A stretch of DNA of 64,000 bases from a virus: the IMG/VR virus record IMGVR_UViG_3300020186_000013, positions 62,001 to 126,000 of that record, one strand, 5' to 3'. Position 1 is the first letter of the stretch. Each line of letters starts with the position of its first letter. The position numbers and the translations under genes are program-made. Below, piece after piece: positions 28,453-53,299 of the stretch. The notes beneath the pieces were generated by a model. That model ran no database searches. It was not told where the DNA came from and was given only the letters and a program-made list of their open reading frames with translations.

Positions 28453-30015
28453 TTACAGGCACTGCCCGCTGTGGTATCGTGCCCGCACGCTCTCACGGAT
28501 GAGGGTGTAGGGCAGCGACTCTTGGTACGCCGTGCCGGTGAATGTTTTGACGGACTCGGTGAACCCCGGTCGCAAGTCATCCCCTGGTGCGTCCAGTGTA
28601 ACCGGGTCGTCTTGAAAAACCAATTCCACCAGCACGACGCAGCACTGCCCAGGGGGCACGAGGCGGCGGGCCAAGGTCGCGACCGACATGCCCAACGCAC
28701 CGGGACCGAACGACGCGGTCCGCAGCTTAACGACAAACAGGTTGTCGCGGAAGAGGTTACTCGTCAGGAAGCCCAGCGGGTTGACGGTCGCGGGCAGGGC
28801 CATCGCGGTCGGCTGACTGGTCCGAGCGGACGCCGGCCGCTGGTCCAGGAGCATCGCCAACGTCTGCCCGGAGGCCACGCCGTTTCGGTGCACGTCGGCC
28901 CAGAAGGCTTCAGCGTCGGCCGGCACGCCACCCACCTCGAACGATACCTTGGTGTACCCGTCGACGTCCTCTTCGACGACCAGGGGTACTACTTTGTTCT
29001 CAAACACGAGGTCTTGGAAGTACCCGGACCCGAGCAGTCCCTCGCCGACCGCGAGTGCCCGCAGGTCGGGGGGCAGCTGGCCTCGGTTGAACTCGAACAC
29101 CGTCAAGGCGTCCGACAGGCTGTCGCCCTTGCGGATGGTGTCGCCCACGGCGGGAACGATCGTCGACCGGGGGTTGAATCGGTAAACGAACTTGTCGGTG
29201 ATGACGAGGGTTGTGTTCGGCTCGTAAACAATGTCCTCAACGACCTCGGTGCCGTGGGCCAAATCCACGCCCGCCACGGTCGCGAACAGGCGGTCGAGAG
29301 ACAACGACGAGCCGCCGTCGATCAGGCCATCAAAGACGGCGTTAATCAGTTCCCGGTAGCCCTCGGACGAGGACAGGTGGACGCCGAGGGCGTAACCGAA
29401 CTGCTCGTACACGGTATTGAGGTCGAGTTCGCCCCGGTAGATCCACAGCCCAGCCTGACGGTCAATGACTTTGTTGTCCTTGAGCAGCGTCCGGATCGGG
29501 GTCAGCGGGTCGGCGAACGGGTCGTCGCGGAACGTGAGACTTGTTTTCCCGTTGTTGGCATTTTTCTCAAGCAGGAAATCAACCCCGTTTAAGAAAGTCA
29601 GGCTGGGGTCGGTGATGCGGTTGGTGATCGCCGGCACATCGACCAGCTGCGGGTCCACGTTCCAACTGAACATCGACCCGGCGACAGGGATGCCGTATTC
29701 GAGGTCGCCCGGCTGGTAGGCGTGGGTGCCGATGTACCTCGCCAGATTGGCGTCCGATAGATTCCTCTGCGACTCCAGCAGCTCTAGAAAGTACCAGTTC
29801 TCCTTGCGGAATACGGGGACCGTGTACCGACTCACGGAGGCCAGTAGGTCGAGGGTGTTGAGGTAGAGTTGGGCGTCGAGCTGGCCGCGAGCGTAGAGGT
29901 AGCTTTGGACGGGGAACGACCCCTGGTAGACGTTCTCCCAGAACGTCCCGACCAGAGCGAGCAACGCCTCTGGCTTGTCCAGTTGGTTCGTCGGATAGGT
30001 GTAGGGCTGCGTCAT
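28453..30015 (-). CDS. virion structural protein (520 aa)
   Basis: Opens MTQPYTYPTNQLDKPEALLA. A helical N-terminal third is followed by a beta-rich body. No signal peptide or enzyme motif. One dispersed palindrome ends 2 nt before its ATG, so this gene has no obvious ribosome-binding site, which is odd. It follows a terminator, so it may start a transcript for the fiber genes. Confidence 0.6.
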   Translation of the reverse strand: MTQPYTYPTNQLDKPEALLALVGTFWENVYQGSFPVQSYLYARGQLDAQLYLNTLDLLASVSRYTVPVFRKENWYFLELLESQRNLSDANLARYIGTHAYQPGDLEYGIPVAGSMFSWNVDPQLVDVPAITNRITDPSLTFLNGVDFLLEKNANNGKTSLTFRDDPFADPLTPIRTLLKDNKVIDRQAGLWIYRGELDLNTVYEQFGYALGVHLSSSEGYRELINAVFDGLIDGGSSLSLDRLFATVAGVDLAHGTEVVEDIVYEPNTTLVITDKFVYRFNPRSTIVPAVGDTIRKGDSLSDALTVFEFNRGQLPPDLRALAVGEGLLGSGYFQDLVFENKVVPLVVEEDVDGYTKVSFEVGGVPADAEAFWADVHRNGVASGQTLAMLLDQRPASARTSQPTAMALPATVNPLGFLTSNLFRDNLFVVKLRTASFGPGALGMSVATLARRLVPPGQCCVVLVELVFQDDPVTLDAPGDDLRPGFTESVKTFTGTAYQESLPYTLIRESVRARYHSGQCL

Positions 30016-30100: not shown

Positions 30101-30796
30101 TCAGTGGCACTGGGCGATGTACTGCCGTTGCGGTGCCGTCACGATGTACTGCGGGGCCTGCACGTATCTAACGTACTGCGGGGCCTGCACGACCTGCTGC
30201 ACCTGCGGCGGGCAAGGATCGACAACGGACAACGGAGTGGCGTCAGGGGCCTTCACCGGAGCCGGTGCGACCATTGGAGCCGGTGCTACCATTGGGGCTG
30301 GCTGGACAACTGGAGCCGCCTGCACGACCTGCACCGGTTGCACGTACTGGTACGCCGGCACCTGAATCACTTGCTGCGGAGCGTACTGAATGTTCTGAAC
30401 GGTGTTGTACGGCGTGTAGCTGTACGTGTTCAGCTGGTTCAGTTGCAGGCGTTGACCAACCAGGAGTTGCTGCTGCTGCACGTGCTGCACCTGCACGACC
30501 TGTTGGACGTGCTGCACCTGCACCTGCTGGATCTGCTGCACGTGCTGCACCCGCACCTGCTGCACGTGCACCGGGGCAACGAGCAGACGCTGCCGGGGGA
30601 CAATCACCCGCTGAGGAGCGACGATCACCCGCTGGGGGGCGACCACGATCCGCTGTGGAGCGATGAAGCCGCCGCCGACCTGCACGATATTGGTCCGACG
30701 GCCGAGGAGGCCACGGTTGTTGACGACAGTGACCTGGCCGAAGGCGTCGGTGACGAGGCAGAGAAGGGCCAGAGTGGCCAAAGCGAGAGTCCGCAT
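30101..30796 (-). CDS. exported Val/Gln-repeat protein (231 aa)
   Basis: Start at ATG 30796 behind a consensus AAGGAGGT. A signal peptide is clear (MRTLALATLALLCLVTDAFG, cleavage near residue 20). The body is low-complexity: VQQVQ/VQHVQQ repeats and VAPAP repeats. The pattern suggests an extended, surface or periplasmic protein. It directly follows two exported heme-c-type genes, so it may share their destination. No family recognised. Confidence 0.65.
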   Translation of the reverse strand: MRTLALATLALLCLVTDAFGQVTVVNNRGLLGRRTNIVQVGGGFIAPQRIVVAPQRVIVAPQRVIVPRQRLLVAPVHVQQVRVQHVQQIQQVQVQHVQQVVQVQHVQQQQLLVGQRLQLNQLNTYSYTPYNTVQNIQYAPQQVIQVPAYQYVQPVQVVQAAPVVQPAPMVAPAPMVAPAPVKAPDATPLSVVDPCPPQVQQVVQAPQYVRYVQAPQYIVTAPQRQYIAQCH

Positions 30797-30867: not shown

Positions 30868-31566
30868 CTACGGCGAAACGGTCCACTTCAGCAAGGCCGG
30901 CAGGTATTCCTGTTTCAGGGCCTTGCTGCCGTCATTGACGGCCTCGGGCGGCATGACGCCGGTCGACGCCTGCCCGTAGATCATCCACTTCCGCTCTTTG
31001 CCGTGTTTGGCGAGGGCGTAGTTGCCGTTCTGTTCGTACAGGAGCCGCAGGTTGCCCTTGGTCCCCATGGAGCCGCCGTGGCACTTGTAGCACGTCCCCA
31101 CGAACGCGGCGATCACTTGGGGGTCGCCCTTGTCGTCGATACCAAGGTCAGTCCGGACTCCCGACTGGGTCACAGGCGGTTGGATCATAGGAGCGGGGGC
31201 CACGGCAGGGGGCGGCGTATATGTTGCCCCCGGAGCGACGGGCTGCCCCTGGGTGGCCAAATAGTTGCGAAGTTCTTCGCGGATCACGTCGCGGATCGCG
31301 GCCCGCTGCTGGTAGGCGTCGTGGACCGAGTAGTAGTGTGTCGCCCCGTACGCCTGAATTGGGACAGCGTAGCTGACAACGGGGACGGTCACGACCAGGG
31401 GAGCGACGACCACCTCTTGGGCGACGACCTTTTGGACCGGGGCAGTGTAGTAGTTGTACCCGCTCGACTGATACGTCGGCTGGTAGTACGTCTGGCAGCG
31501 GATTTGAGCCTTCGCCTCGGCCGCGACGAGCAGCAGTGCGACGGCCGCGATTGCGGTGCGGAACAT
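30868..31566 (-). CDS. exported monoheme c-type cytochrome-like protein
   Basis: 232 residues with a signal peptide (MFRTAIAAVALLLVAAEAKA). Heme c site CYKCH at 159-163 in the C-terminal ~80 residues and a candidate axial Met in GVMPPE (205). The N-terminal half is Tyr/Val/Pro-rich and lacks other Cys pairs. Cytochromes of this form carry electrons outside the cytoplasm; maturation would need the host Ccm or Ccs system. ATG with GGAAGGAGTCC. Surrounded by phage structural genes, which is unusual. Confidence 0.8.
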   Translation of the reverse strand: MFRTAIAAVALLLVAAEAKAQIRCQTYYQPTYQSSGYNYYTAPVQKVVAQEVVVAPLVVTVPVVSYAVPIQAYGATHYYSVHDAYQQRAAIRDVIREELRNYLATQGQPVAPGATYTPPPAVAPAPMIQPPVTQSGVRTDLGIDDKGDPQVIAAFVGTCYKCHGGSMGTKGNLRLLYEQNGNYALAKHGKERKWMIYGQASTGVMPPEAVNDGSKALKQEYLPALLKWTVSP

Positions 31567-31618: not shown

Positions 31619-33388
31619 TCACGGGGCTACGGACAAGGGCGGTAGCCCTCGCAGCTCGCGGTCCGCCTGGACGGCCTTGCGGTACTCCATCAAAAGGAGG
31701 AACGCCTCCTGGTATCCGCCCCTCTCCCACGTCGTGCGGGGGATCGGCTTGCCGTCGAGGATCAATCGACCGATGCGGCCCTTGGTCGACAGCGATATAG
31801 CGTCGGCAAACTCTTGGGGATTGCTGCCGCACTCACGGGCGGCTTGCTCCAGGCTCAGTGGGGCGATGTACCACAGGCGGTGTTTCTTGAACTGCTCGGC
31901 GTTCTCGTCACCCGACAGCCCGTTGCACTCTTTGATGAAGTCCTTGTAGGCTTCCTGGTCGTTCCGCACCAGCCGCTGGATGTTCGATAGGTAGAAGGAC
32001 TGGATCTGTTGCTTGGTTTGAATGTTGGCGTTCAGCTTGACACCACTGCGAAGGATCGCACTTACCTCGTTCTTGGGGGTGATGATGCCCTCGACGTGGC
32101 ACGCCACGCAGCTCTTCCATGTTAGCACGATACCCTTCTCGCCCGATATCGTGTCGTGTACGACGCGAGGGTCGCCGAACTCCACACGCTGGTTCTCGCC
32201 GTTGGTGAGCAGGTAGTATTGGGCACCCTTCATGTCCTGGAAGATGATCTCGGCCGCATCGAACTTCGTCGGGGGTACGGGTAGGGTCTCCAGGAAGTCC
32301 TGGTCCCCGGCGGTGCGGAATACGTCGTACGTCTGCCACAGCACGCCCCCTGGCCCCTGAATGCGTCGCAGTACGCGGTTCTGGTACGACACGTAGCTCT
32401 CGCCCTGGTCGACGACAACACCGCGATCCGCGTACCGTTTACGAGCCTGCTTTTCGTCCACGCCCCAGAACTTGAAGAACTCGTCCGTCGTCTTCGGGAC
32501 TGTCCCGGCAATCTTCTGCTTGACGGTCTTCTTGGTCTTCTGAACGACCTTCCGGGTGGCGTACTCTTTCTCCATGTACTTGTGGCCCTTCGGAAACACG
32601 GTCCCCTTGAGATCGGGACCACCAGGCCAGATCTTCTCCACCATCCGCCCGGTTTCGTACGCCTCATCGGTCGAAGTCTCGACCTCAGTCTCGACCTCCT
32701 TCTCGGCCGTGCTGTACGAATACAGGAGCTGGTAGTAGAAGGCGTTGTCAGCTTGAGTCGCGGCCGACGCCAGGAATTGGGTGGTGTCGCCAACGTAGTA
32801 GACGAACCAGTCGGACCGGACGACGCCGTTGCCGATCATGCTTTTCGTGTATGCCAAACCTCGGCTGTCCGACGGGATCAAGGGCTCGCGGAAGTAAGGG
32901 TCCTCGGCCGAGATCTTCTCGAACACTTCGGGCGTCCAGCAGTACCACCGCAGGTCGATCCAGTAGAGGCGGTTGTCCGTATTCGGGACTACGCGGGGTC
33001 GCTCGACGACTGGCCCGGCCGAGGCCGAGTTGCAAGTGAAGAGGAGGGACGCAGTGGCTTCAGGGAGGCGATTACGCGGCACGCCCGACAGGTCGAAGAA
33101 TCGCAGGTAGGCGACCTCCTCCGTTGCCTTCTTCTCTGCTGTTCGCAGATCAGATCCACCGGCGAGGAAGTCGGCTGTGAAATACTTGTGCATGACCGAT
33201 ACGTGCTCGGCCACCCGTTCCACGACATACGCGGGACTCCACGCGGGCAATTCGGGGTTGAGCTTCAATCGGAGTTTTTCCCATCCCGCGTCCGGTGGTT
33301 CCAATACGTCCGACTGGCCTCCCGCCGGCAGGATTGCCAGCAGGAGGCCGAGCAGGACGGCCGGAATCAGTGCGACCCGTGGGGTCAT
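31619..33388 (-). CDS. exported protein with single heme-c motif (589 aa)
   Basis: Signal peptide (MTPRVALIPAVLLGLLLAIL) and one CVACH motif at 427-431, followed by VEGIITPKNEV. About 420 residues precede the motif, with a WYCW segment near 150 and a Lys/Glu-rich central part. The layout resembles secreted planctomycete-type cytochrome proteins but I cannot name the family. Whether heme is bound is not shown: an axial Met or His cannot be picked with certainty. Confidence 0.6.
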   Translation of the reverse strand: MTPRVALIPAVLLGLLLAILPAGGQSDVLEPPDAGWEKLRLKLNPELPAWSPAYVVERVAEHVSVMHKYFTADFLAGGSDLRTAEKKATEEVAYLRFFDLSGVPRNRLPEATASLLFTCNSASAGPVVERPRVVPNTDNRLYWIDLRWYCWTPEVFEKISAEDPYFREPLIPSDSRGLAYTKSMIGNGVVRSDWFVYYVGDTTQFLASAATQADNAFYYQLLYSYSTAEKEVETEVETSTDEAYETGRMVEKIWPGGPDLKGTVFPKGHKYMEKEYATRKVVQKTKKTVKQKIAGTVPKTTDEFFKFWGVDEKQARKRYADRGVVVDQGESYVSYQNRVLRRIQGPGGVLWQTYDVFRTAGDQDFLETLPVPPTKFDAAEIIFQDMKGAQYYLLTNGENQRVEFGDPRVVHDTISGEKGIVLTWKSCVACHVEGIITPKNEVSAILRSGVKLNANIQTKQQIQSFYLSNIQRLVRNDQEAYKDFIKECNGLSGDENAEQFKKHRLWYIAPLSLEQAARECGSNPQEFADAISLSTKGRIGRLILDGKPIPRTTWERGGYQEAFLLLMEYRKAVQADRELRGLPPLSVAP

Positions 33389-33399
33389 GGCTCACTCCG

Positions 33400-34383
33400 T
33401 CAGGCAATCTTCTTACCGTCGAGGAAGATCCCCGTGGCCCCCTCAATGAGGAGGAACGACTTGTTGCCGGGGGTTGACGGCGTAGTCGGACCCGGCGGCA
33501 CGGGAACCGTCGGAGGTACGGGAGTCGGCGGCGGTACGTTGTCGGGCGGGCCGTACCGGGCTTGGATACGGGGTACGTCGTCGTTGCCTTGGGGGCCGCT
33601 GATGTTGACGTTGTAGTACGGGGCCATGAGGGCCGAGCCGACCTTGCTGTGGTCGAGGCCGAGCAAGTGGCCGAACTCGTGACAAGCGACGTTCATCATC
33701 AGAATGCCCCGTTGGTTGGGGTCCGTGATCCACGTCTCGTCCACGTCGAACCGCATCTGCAACTGCTGGTCGCTGCCGTCGGGCAAGTACGCCCAAGCCA
33801 GGACGCCGCCGGAGCCATCGAAGTTCGATTTCTGCCCCTGGCCAGTACCGATTAAGATGTCGCACGACTCGCCCGACCGGGCCTTCTCGATGTTCAGCTT
33901 GGCGACCCGCATCCAGCGGTTGAACGCCTCTTGGAGGATCGCGTCCTGCTCGATCTTGCCGAGGCCACTGACGTAATCCGTGATGCAATACTTGATCGAC
34001 GTCTTCCGCCACCGGGGCAGGTTCAGCTCGGCGAACTGCTTCATCTTCATGTACTGGGCACCGCTGGCCGTGTCCGGCTGCACCAGGTCGGGGCACCCGC
34101 ACCGTTGCAGCTCCATCGCCCGGACGGTCTTGGCGTCGATCTGCCCGCTCTCCTTCAGGCCGAAGAACTTCTGGAACGCCGAGACAGCGTTGACGATGTC
34201 CCCCAGGCTGATGTCCGTCCAGCCGGACAGTTCCTTGCCGAGGTAGCCGAAGGCGTCGAGGTAATTGAGGGCGAACCGGGCCTCTGGTTTGGCCGATCGC
34301 GAGTCGTTGATTCGGTTGAAGTCGGTCAGGGCTTGCACGGCGTGCTCGACGTGCCCGCTGCTCGGATCTGTGCTCGAATTCAT
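33400..34383 (-). CDS. matrixin-family zinc metalloproteinase (MMP-like)
   Basis: 327 residues. A peptidoglycan-binding-like pro-domain (~40-92, with SAFQKFFGLKESGQIDAKTV) ends in a cysteine-switch motif RCGCPD (94-99). The catalytic domain (~115-275) has HEFGHLLGLDH (235-245; three zinc His and the catalytic Glu) and a Met-turn ALM (251-253). The C-terminus is a Pro-rich linker plus a short segment. All key MMP residues are present, so a zymogen activated by loss of the Cys-zinc bond is predicted. No signal peptide is seen, which fits packaging in the virion rather than secretion. Adjacent to the baseplate J gene. Confidence 0.85.
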   Translation of the reverse strand: MNSSTDPSSGHVEHAVQALTDFNRINDSRSAKPEARFALNYLDAFGYLGKELSGWTDISLGDIVNAVSAFQKFFGLKESGQIDAKTVRAMELQRCGCPDLVQPDTASGAQYMKMKQFAELNLPRWRKTSIKYCITDYVSGLGKIEQDAILQEAFNRWMRVAKLNIEKARSGESCDILIGTGQGQKSNFDGSGGVLAWAYLPDGSDQQLQMRFDVDETWITDPNQRGILMMNVACHEFGHLLGLDHSKVGSALMAPYYNVNISGPQGNDDVPRIQARYGPPDNVPPPTPVPPTVPVPPGPTTPSTPGNKSFLLIEGATGIFLDGKKIA

Positions 34384-34401
34384 TGCCGTCCTCCTTGACA
34401 G

Positions 34402-36054
34402 TTACACGTTCGTGGGCACCGCCGAGACTACCGCAATCCCGACGTCGGCGGCGTCCAAGAAGAACTGCACCGTCCGTGGTGTCACCATGTTCGCCGGAGA
34501 GTTCGGGACCTGGAGGGTCTCGTCACTCCGGATGTATTTGATCGAGTTGTTAGGGTATCTGATGCGGCCGAACATGTCGATAGCACCGGTGCTCATGCCG
34601 TCCGACAGGTAGGGGGCGATGACGGCTTGGAGCGTGCTGGCACTGACGGTGCCTGTGAACCCGGTAGTGTTGACGGTGTGGACCAGGGCGTTGGCAATCG
34701 CCGCGACGTCCGGGTCGGCTGACAAGTTCCGCTTGACGATCTTGAACGACAGCTGGACGAAACACGGCACCGGGGCCTTGACCAAAACGTCAGTACCGCG
34801 ACTGCGGACCTCGGGCATGTTGATCGTGTCCTGGATGTCGCCAATGAGGGGTAAGCACCGGACTTCGAGGGTGTACAGGTTCGTTGCCCCCGGTAGCAGG
34901 CCAGTCGTCGGCGTGACGGTATCGGTGAACTGGATCACGGCCGTCTGGTAGCGGGTGTACGCCCCCTCGGCCAAGGTGCGGATGTCGGGGACGAATCCGG
35001 TCAACCCGGTGAAGTCGAGGGCACGGGCGTCTGAGTTGATCGTGAACCCGCCGATGACGTTCTCGGCGTCAGCCCGGCGGATGTTGGCGACCTCGTAGAA
35101 GCCTGGGGCGTCGTCGCGGCTTACGTTGAACTGCCATAGGCCGCTACCATCATTGTTGACCCGCACCAAGCTGGCCGTCTTCGAGAGGGCCAAGTGGAAC
35201 AGGTCGTCCTGGGACCGGATGTACCAGTCGGCCCGCCCGCCGTAACTGACGGGGAAGATGGTGTGCCGATCCCGGTGCATCTCAGGGTCGCCGTAGCCGA
35301 TGACGGATGTCACGGGCACCGCACTGTACGCCGTGATCGACCGCAGGAAGGCGTTCATGTTGACGCGGTTCGACAGGGTCTTGGCGGCGATGCCCTGCTG
35401 GAGACGGTTGATCAGTTCCTGGTTGGTCTCGGTGTTTCGCCCCTCGGTGAAGTCACTGACCACATAACTGCGGAGGTAGTGCGACGGCAGCTGAGTCGGA
35501 ACGATCGGCGTGTCCTTCTTGAGCAGCCCGGCCGACCCGACGGCCTGGGCGAACACGGTGATCGTGAACACGTAGGTGCCGTCCTGGAGCAGCGTCAGGA
35601 GTCGGTCGCTTGCGTCGTTGATCTGGGCCGGGTCGTTCTTCGCCGCGTACACCTGGTCGGTCTGGAAGATCTGCCCGTCGGCCTCGAAGGTGGTGCCCAG
35701 GGACAGCGTGACGATCGTGTTCGTTGACAGGACGATGGCGACCTCACCCTGGGCGACCGTCCCGGCGTACCGGAACAAGCCGAAGTTCGACAGCACGCCG
35801 TCGACCGTGTCTGGGTCGGCCAGGGTCGGATCGGCCTGGATGTCGATGAGGCTGCGGGCCGACAGGTAATCTTTGACGTTGGCGTCGAGCTGGGCTTCGA
35901 GGACCGCATGGTAGTAAGCGAGGAGGTTGTGCAGCACCCCGAACCGAAGGTCCAAGGTCGGGTTGTCCTCCTGCACCCGTGCCGTGACCTCGGACAGGTT
36001 CTGAGCCACGACGGCCGCGTCCAGGGTCGTCAGGTCTCGGAGTGCAATCGTCAT
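34402..36054 (-). CDS. baseplate J-like protein
   Basis: 550 residues. Length, position after the gp25-like gene and internal pattern (LSARSLIDIQADPTLADP; LSLGTTFEADGQIFQTDQVY; long beta-rich middle) fit the baseplate J / gp47 / T4 gp6 family that forms the wedge ring of contractile tails. It would bridge hub and fibers. Start ATG 36054. Confidence 0.75.
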   Translation of the reverse strand: MTIALRDLTTLDAAVVAQNLSEVTARVQEDNPTLDLRFGVLHNLLAYYHAVLEAQLDANVKDYLSARSLIDIQADPTLADPDTVDGVLSNFGLFRYAGTVAQGEVAIVLSTNTIVTLSLGTTFEADGQIFQTDQVYAAKNDPAQINDASDRLLTLLQDGTYVFTITVFAQAVGSAGLLKKDTPIVPTQLPSHYLRSYVVSDFTEGRNTETNQELINRLQQGIAAKTLSNRVNMNAFLRSITAYSAVPVTSVIGYGDPEMHRDRHTIFPVSYGGRADWYIRSQDDLFHLALSKTASLVRVNNDGSGLWQFNVSRDDAPGFYEVANIRRADAENVIGGFTINSDARALDFTGLTGFVPDIRTLAEGAYTRYQTAVIQFTDTVTPTTGLLPGATNLYTLEVRCLPLIGDIQDTINMPEVRSRGTDVLVKAPVPCFVQLSFKIVKRNLSADPDVAAIANALVHTVNTTGFTGTVSASTLQAVIAPYLSDGMSTGAIDMFGRIRYPNNSIKYIRSDETLQVPNSPANMVTPRTVQFFLDAADVGIAVVSAVPTNV

Positions 36055-37024: not shown

Positions 37025-37753
37025 TCAGAACGGCGACAGCTCGTCGCCCTTGTTCAGTTGCTCTTGGATGTACTTCTTCCGCTGGCTGACGAGGCCGGGG
37101 CTGCGGCGGATCTTGTCGGCGATCTGGTGGTTGGCCAAGACCTTCTTGCCGTTGTACCCGAGGGTGTGCTCGAAGATCAGCTTGTCGGTGGGCGTCAGGT
37201 CGTCGTACACGATCTGGTGCCACATGGTTGATTTGGGTGAGCCGGTGCCGCCGAACACCATCTGCTCGGGGTTCGACGCCTCCAGGGTCCCCTCGGCCAC
37301 AGCCGGGTTGTACGTCCGCACGTGCTTCATCCGCTTGTGGGAGAAGCCGGTGCGATCGGCCAGCTCGGCGTCCGACGGGTCGCGGCCCAGTTCGTGCGAC
37401 AGCTCTTGGTGGGCGTTCTCCATGTTGTACCGGTCGAGGGACACCCGCTCGGGGACCTTCATGACCGACCCTTGCTGGCGGCTGACTCGCTTCAACCCTT
37501 GGAGCTGGTTGAACAGGTGCGTCTGCAACCGGGACCGCTTTGGGTCGTACGTGCCGAGTGAGTCGAGGGTCATCCGCCGAGCCCGGCTGGTAATTAGCGG
37601 GTTGGGCTCGCCGACGTGGGTACGAATCGCCTTGTCGATGGTTGGTTGGAGGTGCGTGAGGATGGCGGCATTGGCCTCGGGGGTCTTGGCCCCCTTCCAC
37701 GTCCCGAAGGCTTCCGTGTGTTCGGGTTCCAACATGCTGGTGCTAGGTAACAT
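37025..37753 (-). CDS. sigma-70-family transcription factor
   Basis: 242 residues from ATG 37753 (GGAGGCAGCG upstream). A region-2-like helix set (NPLITSRARRMTLDSLGTYD) is followed by a region-3-like helix-turn-helix (SHELGRDPSDAELADRTGFS) and a region-4-like part (LTPTDKLIFEHTLGYNGKKV, then a helix ending KIRRSPGLVSQRKKYIQEQL). Phage sigma factors redirect host RNA polymerase, often to late genes. It overlaps the hub gene by 11 nt, so it is probably made together with tail proteins. Its promoter set is unknown. Confidence 0.75.
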   Translation of the reverse strand: MLPSTSMLEPEHTEAFGTWKGAKTPEANAAILTHLQPTIDKAIRTHVGEPNPLITSRARRMTLDSLGTYDPKRSRLQTHLFNQLQGLKRVSRQQGSVMKVPERVSLDRYNMENAHQELSHELGRDPSDAELADRTGFSHKRMKHVRTYNPAVAEGTLEASNPEQMVFGGTGSPKSTMWHQIVYDDLTPTDKLIFEHTLGYNGKKVLANHQIADKIRRSPGLVSQRKKYIQEQLNKGDELSPF

Positions 37754-39494
37754 CGCTGCCTCCCAAATCGCCGCCGAAATTCCCGTCACTACGATTCAAG
37801 TTCTCGTGACCGGGGACCAGAGGCATGCCGGCCTGCACTCTGCTGCCGAATAGCGGATGCACAGGGACGCTGGTCCGCCCGTCCGTACTGCTATTCTCGG
37901 TGTTGGTCCGGACGTGTGACAAGCTGAATGTCGTTTGGGCCTGGGCAGACTCGGCGTTGATCGCGATCGTGACGCGGGCGACTGAGCCGACGAGGTCCAT
38001 GGCCAGGCTGTCCTCGCCGGCCAGGAACTTCTCCTCGGACGCCTTGACGATGATGATTGATCCGGGGCCGATGTCGAACCGGAGTTTGCCGCCGACCAGC
38101 CCGGTGCGGCCCCGGAGCATATTAGCGACGTACACCGATTGGGCGTACCGGTTGAACAGATCGAGCACGTCCTTAGCGAGCTTGTCGCCCTTGGGGTCGG
38201 GACCGGCAACGCCCTTTGCGTTGGGCGTGGTGGCGGTCTTGGTGACCTTGTCGTTGCCGATGCCGGACGTGCCCGATACGTTGTCGGTCGCGTCCTTGAT
38301 GCCGGCCAGCCACGCGGGCGGCGACACATACTGGACAACGCCGTCACTTGCGTCGACAGAGGTGGCTGAGAAACAACCACCGACGATCGGAATGGACCCG
38401 TACCGCCCGGCCTGGACGAGGCCGTAGTCACCGGAGTAGTTCGAGATGACGCCCACGGCCCGCAGCGGGCGGTCGAGTTCAGCTTGCATCTGGAAGCTGT
38501 CGTACTCGTCCGGAGTGATGGCCTTCCACGGCTCGCCGTTGTATGCCGGGGTATCGGCCGCGACGCACGCGAACTCGACCGACGGGTAGATCGCCATGTT
38601 GAACTGGGGGAAGAAGGTCCCCAACATCTTGTCCCAAAAATTGGTGTTCGCGTACGACTCAACAGCTCCCTGGGACAGTGCCCGTGACACGGACTCGGTT
38701 GCCATCGGCACGCTCGCGACGTCCAACTTGAGAGGCGTGCCGTACACGTACGCCTTATCGCAGTTCGGAGCGTTCGTGCCCTTGGCACCAGGACCCTCAA
38801 TCTTTTTGAGTGCGTTCGAGGCCCGGTCATTCTTGACAGCAGCTTCCGTCCCGGCTCCCGAGCACTTGGCATCCCCGACACCAGGTTCGGCTTTGACGTC
38901 GGCGAGCTGACAGAACAGTCCCTTCATCGCCCCCCACAGGTCGGCGGTGACCGTATCGACAGTCGTCTTGTACCATACCATCGACGCAATGTAATTGCCC
39001 TTGCCGAGGTTCGCTCCGGTGAGGTTGCCGTTGGCCATGACAGCCCGTGAGGTCATGGCCCACGGGTTAGCGGGGTGACTGTTCTTGGCTAGGCAGCTGG
39101 AGTTGGCCAGGTCGATCAGCCAGTGCCGAAGGTTGGCGATCACCTGGATCTTGCCGCTAATCTTGGTGTACGCGAGGCCGACCATGTACCCTTCAAAGAT
39201 CACGAACGGATCTTCGGGCCACTGGATGCCTTTGGTGTCCCAATCGCCCTTGAGTTGCAGGGTGACCCTCGCCGGCTGCATCTGCTTGACCTTCGAGAAC
39301 ACACTGTGGATAACGGCGTCTTCTAGTGTCCGGGCGTTGCGACCCACGGCCAAAAGGATCTGGGCACTCGGGATCTCATTCACCGCGAAGCTACTCGTGA
39401 ACTGGCTCACGTCGAACTTGAGACCGTTGACTTCGAGTGTCAGCGTCGTGCCCTCGCCCAGGTGCGTCAGTGCCCACTGCTTAGTTTGTCCCAC
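37743..39494 (-). CDS. baseplate hub-like protein (gp27/gpD-type)
   Basis: 583 residues. The N-terminal 130 residues have the beta-rich form of hub proteins (ALTHLGEGTTLTLEVNGLKF). The central part contains a Gly/Ala/Asn insertion with scattered Cys. Position between tape measure and wedge genes supports a central hub that carries the spike. Start ATG 39494; the end overlaps the sigma-factor gene. Confidence 0.6.
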   Translation of the reverse strand: MGQTKQWALTHLGEGTTLTLEVNGLKFDVSQFTSSFAVNEIPSAQILLAVGRNARTLEDAVIHSVFSKVKQMQPARVTLQLKGDWDTKGIQWPEDPFVIFEGYMVGLAYTKISGKIQVIANLRHWLIDLANSSCLAKNSHPANPWAMTSRAVMANGNLTGANLGKGNYIASMVWYKTTVDTVTADLWGAMKGLFCQLADVKAEPGVGDAKCSGAGTEAAVKNDRASNALKKIEGPGAKGTNAPNCDKAYVYGTPLKLDVASVPMATESVSRALSQGAVESYANTNFWDKMLGTFFPQFNMAIYPSVEFACVAADTPAYNGEPWKAITPDEYDSFQMQAELDRPLRAVGVISNYSGDYGLVQAGRYGSIPIVGGCFSATSVDASDGVVQYVSPPAWLAGIKDATDNVSGTSGIGNDKVTKTATTPNAKGVAGPDPKGDKLAKDVLDLFNRYAQSVYVANMLRGRTGLVGGKLRFDIGPGSIIIVKASEEKFLAGEDSLAMDLVGSVARVTIAINAESAQAQTTFSLSHVRTNTENSSTDGRTSVPVHPLFGSRVQAGMPLVPGHENLNRSDGNFGGDLGGSDVT

Positions 39495-50476: not shown

Positions 50477-53299
50477 TCAGAACGTCAGGTGGATCTCGAT
50501 GTTGTTCAGAGCGTACGGGACGACGAGGGACAGGTTCACGACGATCCGGTCCTTGAGTGTCGGGTGCTGGTGCACGTCGATTACCGTGCCGTCGATGAGC
50601 TGTCCGCCCAGCAACTTTGTCGAGGATTCGATCTTGAGCACGTTGATCAGCGTGTTCGTGTCGAGGCGGATGCGGGACACCGTTCCGGGGGTGACGTTGG
50701 TGACCCCGATGAACGGGGCGAACGTGTCCTTGAACCGGTAAGAGATCGAGTCCACGTTGCGGGTGATCATCTCCTCCCGCTTGTTGATGTCACTGTTCAA
50801 CGCGGTCGTGACCGCGTGTCGCGTGAAGATCGTGCCGACGATTGGGTCCTGGGTGACAATCCAGGTGCCTGCCAGGGCCATGGCGTCGAGCTGGGCCTTG
50901 TTGAACTTCGCGGTTGTCCGGTCCACGTTCGAGTACCCGGTGATCTCCAGGTGCGTGAGTCCCTGGTGGGGCAGCACGCCGCCGGACAAGGCCGCGAGCG
51001 AGCAGCACAGGAAGGTCCCGTCCATGATCGTGCCGGCCGACTCGATCTGGTCCGGCCACACCGCACGAATGCGGCGGTCGCCCCAGCTGCCAGCCGACAG
51101 AGCGATCTCCTGGGACTCTTCGCCGGCACTGAGGTGCCGCCAGATTTCCGTCTTGGCCCCGACGGACAGCGGGCCGGACGGGCCGACGAGAAGCCGGAGC
51201 TGGTCCTCGGCAGTAACCACGTCGACGACGAACTCGGTGTACGAGTAGTTACCGAAGCCGTCGCCGGTGTACTCGGTCCGGACGATGTCGCCGGGGCGGA
51301 CGTTGTTGGTGATGAACCCGCCGTTGTCGCTCGTGCACCGGAGGATGGTGAAGCTCGACCCGATGAAGAACGGGTCCTGCTCGACGACGCACAGACAGAC
51401 ATCGCCGTCCGTCGTGGTGGCCGTCAGGTGGTTGGCGACCGTCGACCCGGACGAGACGATCGGGATGAGTGGGACGCCCATCAGGTTGAACCAGGTAACC
51501 CGCCACAGGGCGGCGGTTGCCACCGACTGGTCATCGACGTGAGCAGCCCACAGGTCCTGGACCGTGCGGTTCTTCGTCAGCGGGACGAGCCCGTAGACGT
51601 CGTCGCGACCGATCAGGATGCCGAGTACGTCGGCCCACGAGGAGACGTCGGCCGGGTTGCACACCGACGAGAATTTGACGTCCGTGCCGTTCGCGTTCTC
51701 CAGGGCCTTGAACACGCCCCACTTGAGGGGGTTGTCCGGGTGCAAGGCACCGCTGATCTGGTCGTTGATGGTGCCGACATCATTGATCGTGAACACCTCG
51801 TTGCAGAGGTCCGACAGCCAGGCCCGGTATTCGACGTACACTTGGCCGTACTGCTTGCTTGCTTCCGACGACAGGGGAAGGGCAACCGGAACTCCGCTGT
51901 TCGTCCAGGTCGCGTCGAACGCCTGGATGCCGTCGTTGATCGTGATCTGTTCGGCAGTCTGGTCCCAGTTGGTCAGCGGGGCGGACCCGATGCGGTTCTT
52001 TTCGATCTGGAGTACCGGCTTGCGGATGAACAAGGTCAGGTCCAGTTCGTTGCCGGCCGGGATGGCGGACGGCAGGTTCTGGCCCAGTTCAATTGCCTTG
52101 ATCGGTCCCTCGGCTGCGGACAACACGGGGACATAGAAGCGGTCACCCGTCCGCAGGGCGACGCCCGAGAACATGATGGTCGCCCCGAGCGTACCGATCG
52201 GCACAGCCGTGGCGGACGCCGGGACAACAATCGGCCCGCTGATGTCGATGCCGTTCGTGGTCGTGATGTTGATCTGAGGGTCGTTCGGGTACGTACCACC
52301 CCGGTTGACGACCACGATGTAGGTCGTGTCGTTGAGGCCGGTGTACGTGCCGCCCGATGTCGCAGACGGGGCCGTGAACAGCTGGTTCACGGTCACACGC
52401 CACCGCTGGCCGACCACGATGTCTGCCGGGAGGACGCCGTCGCCGATGGCCGAGATCGAGTCGCCGCCGCTACCACTGCTGTCAAACGTGACCGTGAGGC
52501 CACGGGTGCCGATCGGCGTGGGCACGTTCATGCCGTTCGGGACCACCGACAGGATGTCGTCCGTACCCGAACCGGAGATGATGCGGATCTTGCCTTTGGT
52601 CAGGTCACTGCTGACCGACGTCTCAGTGACGATGATGTCGTACGTTTCGGTAATGTACCCCGATGCCAGGCCGTCGTAGGCTGTGCCGTCAGGGATCAGG
52701 ATGATGGCGTTGTCAGGGCCACTGACCTTGGTGTACGAAGCCGAGTACGACTGCGTGGGCTTGTTGTTGACGTCGTTCGCCGCCGCCAGGACCGAGCTGG
52801 CGATCTGGTCGCCGTGCAGAGCCTTGACGTAAGTCCACAGCGTGACCGGGGACAAGGTGTTGTCCAGGCCGCGAACCTTGACCACGTCGCCCGGCTGAAC
52901 GTCGCGGTCGAGGAACTCGTTCGAGCGGACGTAGATCCCGTTCTCGGCGAAGTTCAGGTTGGTCGAGTGGATGCGGTTACCGTACGACGCCATCTTGGTG
53001 ACCATGTGGCCACCGCCAATGAACGTGGTGAAGTATTGGAGCAGGGCGTCCTTGACCCACACCTTCGTGTAGGTCGCGTCGACGATCCCGCCAGCCGGCC
53101 GGTGCGGCCATGCGTGCGGCTGCGGCAGGAGGTTGTCGTAGTAGCCGAGGAAGCCCTTGGCCTGCTCGTCGGTCTCGTTGTAGCGGAGCAGCTGGGCGTG
53201 CGGCCCGGTGATGTGCGACCGCAGCGGGTTTGCGACCGCCGCCGGGACGATGTTGAACTCTTGGAAAACCAAAACCTGGGGAAGGACGTACGTCGCCAT
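50477..53299 (-). CDS. contractile tail sheath protein (940 aa)
   Basis: Starts MATYVLPQVLVFQEFNIVPA, like sheath N-termini of other large myoviruses, and its C-terminal ~250 residues (from WAAHVDDQSVATAALWRVTW to the end VPYALNNIEIHLTF) match the sheath end that interlocks subunits. At 940 residues it is longer than T4 gp18 (659), with large beta-rich insertions in the middle. Neighbour of the tube gene. Contracts to drive the tube into the host. Confidence 0.75.
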   Translation of the reverse strand: MATYVLPQVLVFQEFNIVPAAVANPLRSHITGPHAQLLRYNETDEQAKGFLGYYDNLLPQPHAWPHRPAGGIVDATYTKVWVKDALLQYFTTFIGGGHMVTKMASYGNRIHSTNLNFAENGIYVRSNEFLDRDVQPGDVVKVRGLDNTLSPVTLWTYVKALHGDQIASSVLAAANDVNNKPTQSYSASYTKVSGPDNAIILIPDGTAYDGLASGYITETYDIIVTETSVSSDLTKGKIRIISGSGTDDILSVVPNGMNVPTPIGTRGLTVTFDSSGSGGDSISAIGDGVLPADIVVGQRWRVTVNQLFTAPSATSGGTYTGLNDTTYIVVVNRGGTYPNDPQINITTTNGIDISGPIVVPASATAVPIGTLGATIMFSGVALRTGDRFYVPVLSAAEGPIKAIELGQNLPSAIPAGNELDLTLFIRKPVLQIEKNRIGSAPLTNWDQTAEQITINDGIQAFDATWTNSGVPVALPLSSEASKQYGQVYVEYRAWLSDLCNEVFTINDVGTINDQISGALHPDNPLKWGVFKALENANGTDVKFSSVCNPADVSSWADVLGILIGRDDVYGLVPLTKNRTVQDLWAAHVDDQSVATAALWRVTWFNLMGVPLIPIVSSGSTVANHLTATTTDGDVCLCVVEQDPFFIGSSFTILRCTSDNGGFITNNVRPGDIVRTEYTGDGFGNYSYTEFVVDVVTAEDQLRLLVGPSGPLSVGAKTEIWRHLSAGEESQEIALSAGSWGDRRIRAVWPDQIESAGTIMDGTFLCCSLAALSGGVLPHQGLTHLEITGYSNVDRTTAKFNKAQLDAMALAGTWIVTQDPIVGTIFTRHAVTTALNSDINKREEMITRNVDSISYRFKDTFAPFIGVTNVTPGTVSRIRLDTNTLINVLKIESSTKLLGGQLIDGTVIDVHQHPTLKDRIVVNLSLVVPYALNNIEIHLTF

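Follow-up and report, generated by a model that had tools for sequence, protein, structure and literature searches.

The window (the whole stretch of 64,000 nucleotides that was analysed, part of the 208,145-bp IMG/VR virus record referred to here as G000) harbors a gene coding for a complete matrix metalloproteinase (MMP) zymogen, which lacks a signal peptide and occupies a slot of the tail operon whose content changes from relative to relative. The gene is real and under selection, and its regular company is made up of exported or membrane proteins, often including a second protease. On this basis we tentatively suggest that the gene might belong to an accessory module for proteolysis of the host envelope from inside, at the time of exit.

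The zymogen and its homologues

The Pfam analysis assigned residues 124-278 of the protein to Peptidase_M10 (115.8 bits against a cut-off of 24, 2.3e-33) and residues 40-90 to PG_binding_1 (31.5 bits against a cut-off of 23, 2.1e-7). The closest solved relatives, retrieved from the PDB with phmmer, are human proMMP-10 (9csx, 2.3e-33), proMMP-1 (1su3, 9e-32) and proMMP-3 (1slm, 1e-30), and residues 37-303 align with human proMMP-10 through prodomain, switch and catalytic domain. When the AlphaFold model (pLDDT 79.7, pTM 0.76) was used as a Foldseek query, proMMP-1, -3 and -10 were among the top four matches, with E down to 8.8e-15; the catalytic domain of the model matches MMP-1 and MMP-13 with a TM-score of about 0.8 of the target and at about 3 A, and the prodomain-catalytic arrangement of the whole zymogen fits that of the proMMPs only at about 7 A. 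The protein, in other words, exhibits the HExxHxxGxxH motif with its Met-turn, a score above the family cut-off, a globular prodomain with a PRCGxPD-type switch and the catalytic fold that define M10A matrixins. The first-pass annotation, which had described a complete MMP with pro-domain, RCGCPD, HEFGHLLGLDH and Met-turn, is therefore confirmed by Pfam, phmmer and Foldseek; the switch residue that it called Cys96 is actually Cys95 (R94-C95-G96-C97-P98-D99). A contact between Cys95 and the zinc is the predicted latency lock of the enzyme. A further cysteine, Cys97, is located where proMMP-10 has Val.

The absence of a signal peptide, also claimed previously, was borne out: the N-terminus is not hydrophobic and the open frame (333 aa) continues for merely about six codons upstream of the ATG, where a cryptic export signal was sought, so that a hidden upstream signal peptide can be rejected. 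The possibility that the ORF is a chance or frameshift artefact was likewise rejected on the basis of the E-values and of the dN/dS reported below, and that of bacterial contamination of the contig because the gene is embedded in a tail operon whose gene order recurs in other phage records. A pattern search through the 209 predicted genes of the record for the C-terminal tail, as a tag common to other phage proteins, retrieved the MMP only. The features of the region are listed in Table 1.

Table 1. Features of the MMP gene, of the borders of the slot and of the exported partners (window positions)
Feature	Position	Strand	Evidence
Phage matrix metalloproteinase zymogen, 327 aa	33400..34383	-	PF00413 2.3e-33; proMMP matches in PDB; Foldseek proMMP-1/-3/-10
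Shine-Dalgarno AAGGAGG of the MMP gene	34390..34396	-	6 nt before ATG, from sequence
MMP prodomain, PG_binding_1 fold, residues 40-90	34114..34266	-	PF01471 2.1e-7
Cysteine switch RCGCPD, residues 94-99, predicted zinc ligand Cys95	34087..34104	-	Alignment to proMMP-10 RCGVPD; C95 kept by all 14 aligned phage MMPs
Zinc-binding motif HEFGHLLGLDH, residues 235-245	33649..33681	-	H235, E236, G238, H239, G242 and H245 invariant in 14 phage MMPs
Met-turn LMAP, residues 252-255	33619..33630	-	14 aligned phage MMPs: L252 always kept, M253 almost always
Short C-terminal hairpin-like tail after Pro-rich linker, residues 309-327	33403..33459	-	Similar tails in most signal-peptide-less phage MMPs
Baseplate J gene, bounding the slot on one side	34402..36054	-	PF04865 Baseplate_J 1e-8; PHROG baseplate wedge phrog_6 8e-14
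g29, gene of the tail operon, bounding the slot on the other side	28453..30015	-	Contiguous with baseplate J in 12 relatives
CytA, exported 589-aa protein with SCVACH haem-c motif	31619..33388	-	Signal-peptide-like N-terminus; beside MMP in other phages
CxxCH haem-c attachment motif of CytA, residues 427-431	32096..32110	-	C427, C430 and H431 invariant in 5 homologues
CytB, predicted exported class I c-type cytochrome, 232 aa	30868..31566	-	PSCyt1 9e-4, just under cut-off; conserved CxxCH and MP motif
CxxCH haem-c motif of CytB, residues 159-163	31078..31092	-	Conserved in family alignment
Small exported Gln/Val-rich protein at the end of the insert, likely start MRTLALAT...	30101..30796	-	Signal-peptide-like start

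Scans with the single protein against viral and genome contigs, and tblastn against deposited phages, did not disclose any relative. Homologues were reached by searching IMG/VR with a degenerate HExGHxxGxxH pattern and with phmmer, which gave at least 13 clear ones, and then by a profile scan based on their alignment, which revealed 21 viral and 17 bacterial loci, the latter mostly from Planctomycetota and including prophage-like loci in Limnoglobus and Gemmata. The HExGHxxGxxH motif is kept in all the 33 phage MMPs of the tree set, which were selected on that very motif, and the Met-turn and the switch cysteine in all or nearly all of them (loose patterns, misses checked by eye). Close MMP pairs have a dN/dS of 0.03-0.07, that is, they are under strong purifying selection; since the 33 copies were chosen on the zinc motif, this is a stronger argument than motif retention.

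In the phylogenetic tree the phage MMPs group with five copies from planctomycetes, among them those of the Gemmataceae prophage-like loci, and the exported matrixins of planctomycetes lie outside this group. The node joining the MMP of the record with 15 other phage copies has a support of 100/97, and the wider grouping a weaker one of 82/87. The great majority of phage MMPs is devoid of a signal peptide. Chromosomal matrixins matched the profile at E<=1e-10 in 90 of the 392 Planctomycetota genomes searched; 13 of the best 20 such loci have signal-peptide-like starts and almost none carries the switch motif, as judged by crude tests. Since the best 20 are mostly exported and switch-less, the combination of a missing signal and a cysteine switch appears, in this sample, as a phage design.

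Slot cargo and partner genes

The MMP gene follows the baseplate J gene at a distance of 18 nt, and the adjacency reported earlier is thus correct. The same order is found in 12 other records (several of them near-duplicates; GC 42-67%), and in all these records secreted or membrane proteins part the MMP from g29, the next tail gene. The slot is empty, with baseplate J directly abutting g29, in 12 relatives (L198, L211-L213, L215-L219 and L221-L223), and contains one short unrelated ORF in three more; the baseplate J protein of L221, where the slot is empty, is 49% identical to that of the record, the closest of all being that of L192 (51%). Three forms of occupied slot can be recognized, harboring i) MMP, CytA and CytB (the phage of the record, L193 and L192/L209), ii) MMP together with a TM protein, an exported protein, a papain-like protease and others (L197, L199-L202, L204-L206 and L210), or iii) a papain-like protease in the absence of the MMP (five records, L194-L196, L203 and L207).

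Similar cassettes are present at other places. MMP, CytA and CytB are found without baseplate genes in L151, L182, L183, L184 and L186 and in the prophage-like L152 (Limnoglobus) and L155 (Gemmata), the Limnoglobus stretch L152 being contained in the IMG/VR virus record L188; in L153, also without baseplate genes, MMP and CytA are accompanied by another exported CxxCH protein. Cassettes formed by a TM protein, the MMP and a papain-like protease occur in G009-G012 and G036-G038, and those of G036-G038 are far from baseplate J (about 40 kb or more in G036-G037). The MMP is hence not constantly present beside baseplate J among the relatives and, the slot being empty in 12 of them and occupied in three forms in others, it represents a cargo of the slot rather than a fixed baseplate gene. 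The idea of an MMP belonging to the baseplate is not supported, given the empty slots, the cassettes located elsewhere and the nature of the co-conserved neighbours, which are exported or membrane proteins.

As for these neighbours, the genes of CytA, CytB and the small protein have three of the strongest signal-peptide-like starts of the record, according to a crude predictor, and small exported proteins hold the equivalent position in other MMP cassettes. On the basis of its CxxCH and distal Met (MP) motif, CytB is a predicted exported mono-haem cytochrome c; its family profile matched cytochromes c of the PDB weakly, the best at 0.003. No relative of CytA was found in the PDB, its AlphaFold-type model (pLDDT 48) is too poor for use, and proteins with its C-terminal part are present in 8 of the 294 planctomycete genomes sampled. 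The attachment of c-type haem occurs outside the cytoplasm, and for this reason CytA and CytB are expected to work in the infected cell's envelope and probably do not belong to the virion; more generally, export-type neighbours weaken the baseplate reading because such proteins are not readily accommodated by virions that are put together in the cytoplasm.

A papain-like protein is encoded by 14 of the 33 records searched, none of the 14 being a CytA/CytB record. This family has invariant Cys, His and Asn residues and a relative in the PDB, the cysteine protease 3ois (1.6e-13); signal-less members, in the same slot or with an MMP, are located at L171:9684-10508, L174:9768-10892, L147:11499-12524 and L203:8978-9919. 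In G033 an exported trypsin-like protease lies beside the MMP (PF13365 2e-12), and in G007 an exported protein with trypsin-type motifs, recognized by motif, lies near it; the coordinates of exported serine proteases of this type, adjoining a phage MMP or close to one in two phages other than that of the record, are L247:5619-7391 and L145:11888-12892. Small holin-like TM proteins are found beside the MMP in G009 and G038, with matches to Phage_holin_10 (0.0012) and to a PHROG holin (0.044) that are both below the cut-off. In the groups of phages whose partner is recognizable, the MMP lies beside one candidate activator and not two, this being a trypsin-like protease, a papain-like protease or a pair of haem proteins.

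Possible roles at the host envelope

The virus of the record probably infects planctomycetes. The planctomycete type of host suggested by the first-pass annotation is supported, since most of the 17 bacterial relatives belong to Planctomycetota, but the notion of a wall made of protein alone no longer holds: planctomycetes also have a lysozyme-sensitive peptidoglycan wall (PMC4432640), so that some unrecognised factor must still cut peptidoglycan. No known peptidoglycan hydrolase was detected by Pfam among most of the G000 proteins, which were those scanned; in the 24 MMP-bearing records, lysozyme, SLT and Amidase_2 domains were not found and M23 did not exceed the cut-off. The M23 matches in relatives were discounted, since all of them are below the cut-off and mostly concern very long ORFs, perhaps RNA polymerase subunits. 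The relatives without an MMP in the slot are likewise without SLT; its absence is therefore not specific and does not alone indicate that the MMP replaces an endolysin, and divergent endolysins may be present in place of the known ones.

Cysteine-switch MMPs have mainly been studied as animal enzymes. The phage MMP shares with the vertebrate M10A zymogens (proMMP-10, -1, -3 and -9) the prodomain, the RCGxPD switch, the HExGHxxGxxH motif, the Met-turn and the catalytic fold; however, it is encoded by a phage, has neither a signal peptide nor a hemopexin domain, and possesses a second Cys two residues after the first and a short C-terminal hairpin-like tail. Its catalytic domain is also similar to that of karilysin, a bacterial MMP of known structure (Foldseek 1.0e-10, phmmer about 6e-23), but the lock is a different one, since karilysin has a 14-residue propeptide with an aspartate switch (PMC6949598). 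The M10-type domain is common to the chromosomal Planctomycetota matrixins as well, but the 10 such bacterial rows included in the tree fall outside the phage set. MMPs are reported from viruses in general in the part of PMC6949598 that cites Marino-Puertas 2017, and no Gemmata phage had been isolated as of PMC5707555. In the open literature we came across no account of MMPs with a cysteine switch from phages of planctomycetes, of the slot or of the partner modules; metalloproteases and Planctomycetes are absent from the main text of a 2025 survey of viral lytic proteins, as is the word protease from a review on envelope breaching by tailed phages. What is described here is a complete animal-type zymogen that is strongly selected in many large phages, the bacterial phylum of their hosts being one whose envelope is unusual.

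A question concerns the role that such a zymogen might have. The reading we favour, to which we give a little less than an even chance, is that of an accessory module in which a cytoplasmic zymogen, released or activated late, attacks the envelope of the host from inside and favors exit. It is built on the architecture, the missing signal peptide, the slot, the cassettes elsewhere, the partners and the selection described above, and its timing, release, activation and substrate might be as follows. The MMP would be made late, together with the tail operon, and the prodomain and Cys95 would prevent it from doing harm inside the cytoplasm; once the inner membrane is breached, it would reach the envelope in the manner of a signal-less endolysin, and there the zinc might be freed, either because the prodomain is lost or because Cys95 is oxidised; the active enzyme would then cut planctomycete envelope proteins and help the virions to leave. 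The periplasmic-side partners would be the two c-type cytochromes and the small exported protein in the phage of the record, and a papain-like or trypsin-like protease might replace these partners in other phages. This idea is supported by the exported or membrane proteins that regularly accompany the MMP, often with a second protease among them, and in some relatives the signal-less enzyme beside small TM or exported proteins resembles a holin-endolysin cassette. The likeness has its limits, since the MMP is a protease by family and not a peptidoglycan hydrolase, the PG_binding_1 match being its prodomain, and the holin assignment in the MMP relatives is weak. Other observations count against an exit function: the cassette of the record itself contains no recognizable holin, the presence of cytochromes next to a lysis aid is left without explanation, the location in the tail operon is compatible also with a virion protein, the MMPs of G007, G008 and Gemmata L155 carry an N-terminal export or anchor segment, the M10 protease of G039 is of the ordinary exported type, and the records are metagenomic and of uncertain completeness.

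The location in the tail operon would also fit a different role, the one proposed by the first-pass annotation, namely that of a virion-borne entry protease. The zymogen would be packed inside the baseplate or attached to it, possibly by means of the C-terminal hairpin, and once unlocked on contact it would cut surface proteins. Most copies indeed lack a signal peptide, the gene adjoins baseplate J in the record and in the 12 others (near-duplicates included), the short tail after the Pro-rich linker is conserved, and the MMPs of L183, L184 and L186 contain an FN3-like insert, recognized by eye. We nevertheless consider this rather unlikely, given the 12 relatives with an empty slot, the MMPs far from tail genes or in unrelated phages, the export-type neighbours and the fact that a tail position is common to whatever fills the slot. 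If the MMP were a tool for either exit or entry, these phages would breach cells by proteolysis, beside or instead of known peptidoglycan hydrolases.

The prophage-like loci bearing MMP, CytA and CytB in Limnoglobus (L152, within L188) and Gemmata raise the further possibility that the envelope of the infected or lysogenic cell is remodelled, a low-level release of MMP leading to the processing of an exported partner and to an altered sensitivity to lysis or superinfection. A precedent exists in Listeria, where the phage-derived metzincin Mtz cleaves Tim and sensitises cells to phage lysis; the common trait is a phage-associated metzincin beside an exported partner (PMC8235301). The phage MMP does not, however, form a Listeria-type pair of exported metzincin and TIMP-like lipoprotein: Mtz is itself exported by a Sec signal and Tim is a TIMP-like lipoprotein, whereas the MMP has no signal and its neighbours are CxxCH proteins or a protease, and the Mtz/Tim paper makes no mention of a cysteine switch (PMC8235301). 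As the MMP of the record has no export route of its own, its cytochrome partners are not TIMP-like lipoproteins and the MMP stays while the type of partner changes, we regard remodelling as improbable. A purely cytoplasmic role, with the MMP processing phage structural proteins or destroying host proteins inside the cell, would fit its predicted cytoplasmic location and its position among structural genes; it would, on the other hand, require the lock to be opened inside the cell, to which no partner points, the partners act outside the cytoplasm and 12 relatives do without the MMP at the slot, so that we judge it very unlikely.

As to the module itself, it might consist of a zymogen and its dedicated activator, that is, a protease clipping the prodomain or a haem pair oxidising the switch cysteine in the periplasm. 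We hold this to be quite doubtful; if true, it would represent a protease cascade opening bacterial envelopes, parallel to the activation of animal MMPs by trypsin or oxidants.

Other genes of the record and its relatives

The Pfam analysis of G000 revealed a multisubunit RNA polymerase, a thymidylate synthase-complementing protein, a ribonucleotide reductase and tubulin-like and CAP domains; a sulfotransferase and several glycosyltransferase matches, together with the tubulin-family, CAP-domain and multisubunit RNA polymerase genes, lie mostly outside the window. Within the baseplate operon, a gene at 37025-37789 (-) resembles sigma-70 region 3 (PF04539 2.6e-5, just below the cut-off; PHROG sigma factor 3e-5). 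Its synteny is maintained in about 10 phages related to that of the record, and a sigma factor is unusual in a tail operon. The C-terminal half of a 940-aa protein (50477-53299, -) is about 26% identical to structural or hypothetical proteins of Salmonella phage Arash and Vibrio phages D181/D148/D69, and the protein is possibly a tail sheath. A small ORF on the strand opposite to that of its neighbours (L007:8589-8783; record 154589-154783, plus strand), starting with MLVLSRKAGEKIHIGDNIVLTIVEVRGNKV, presumably resembles the translational regulator CsrA. Lastly, near the MMP cassette of L147, a single 1456-aa ORF (L147:15440-19810) matches both the Rpb2 and the Rpb1 domains and is apparently a fused phage RNA polymerase.
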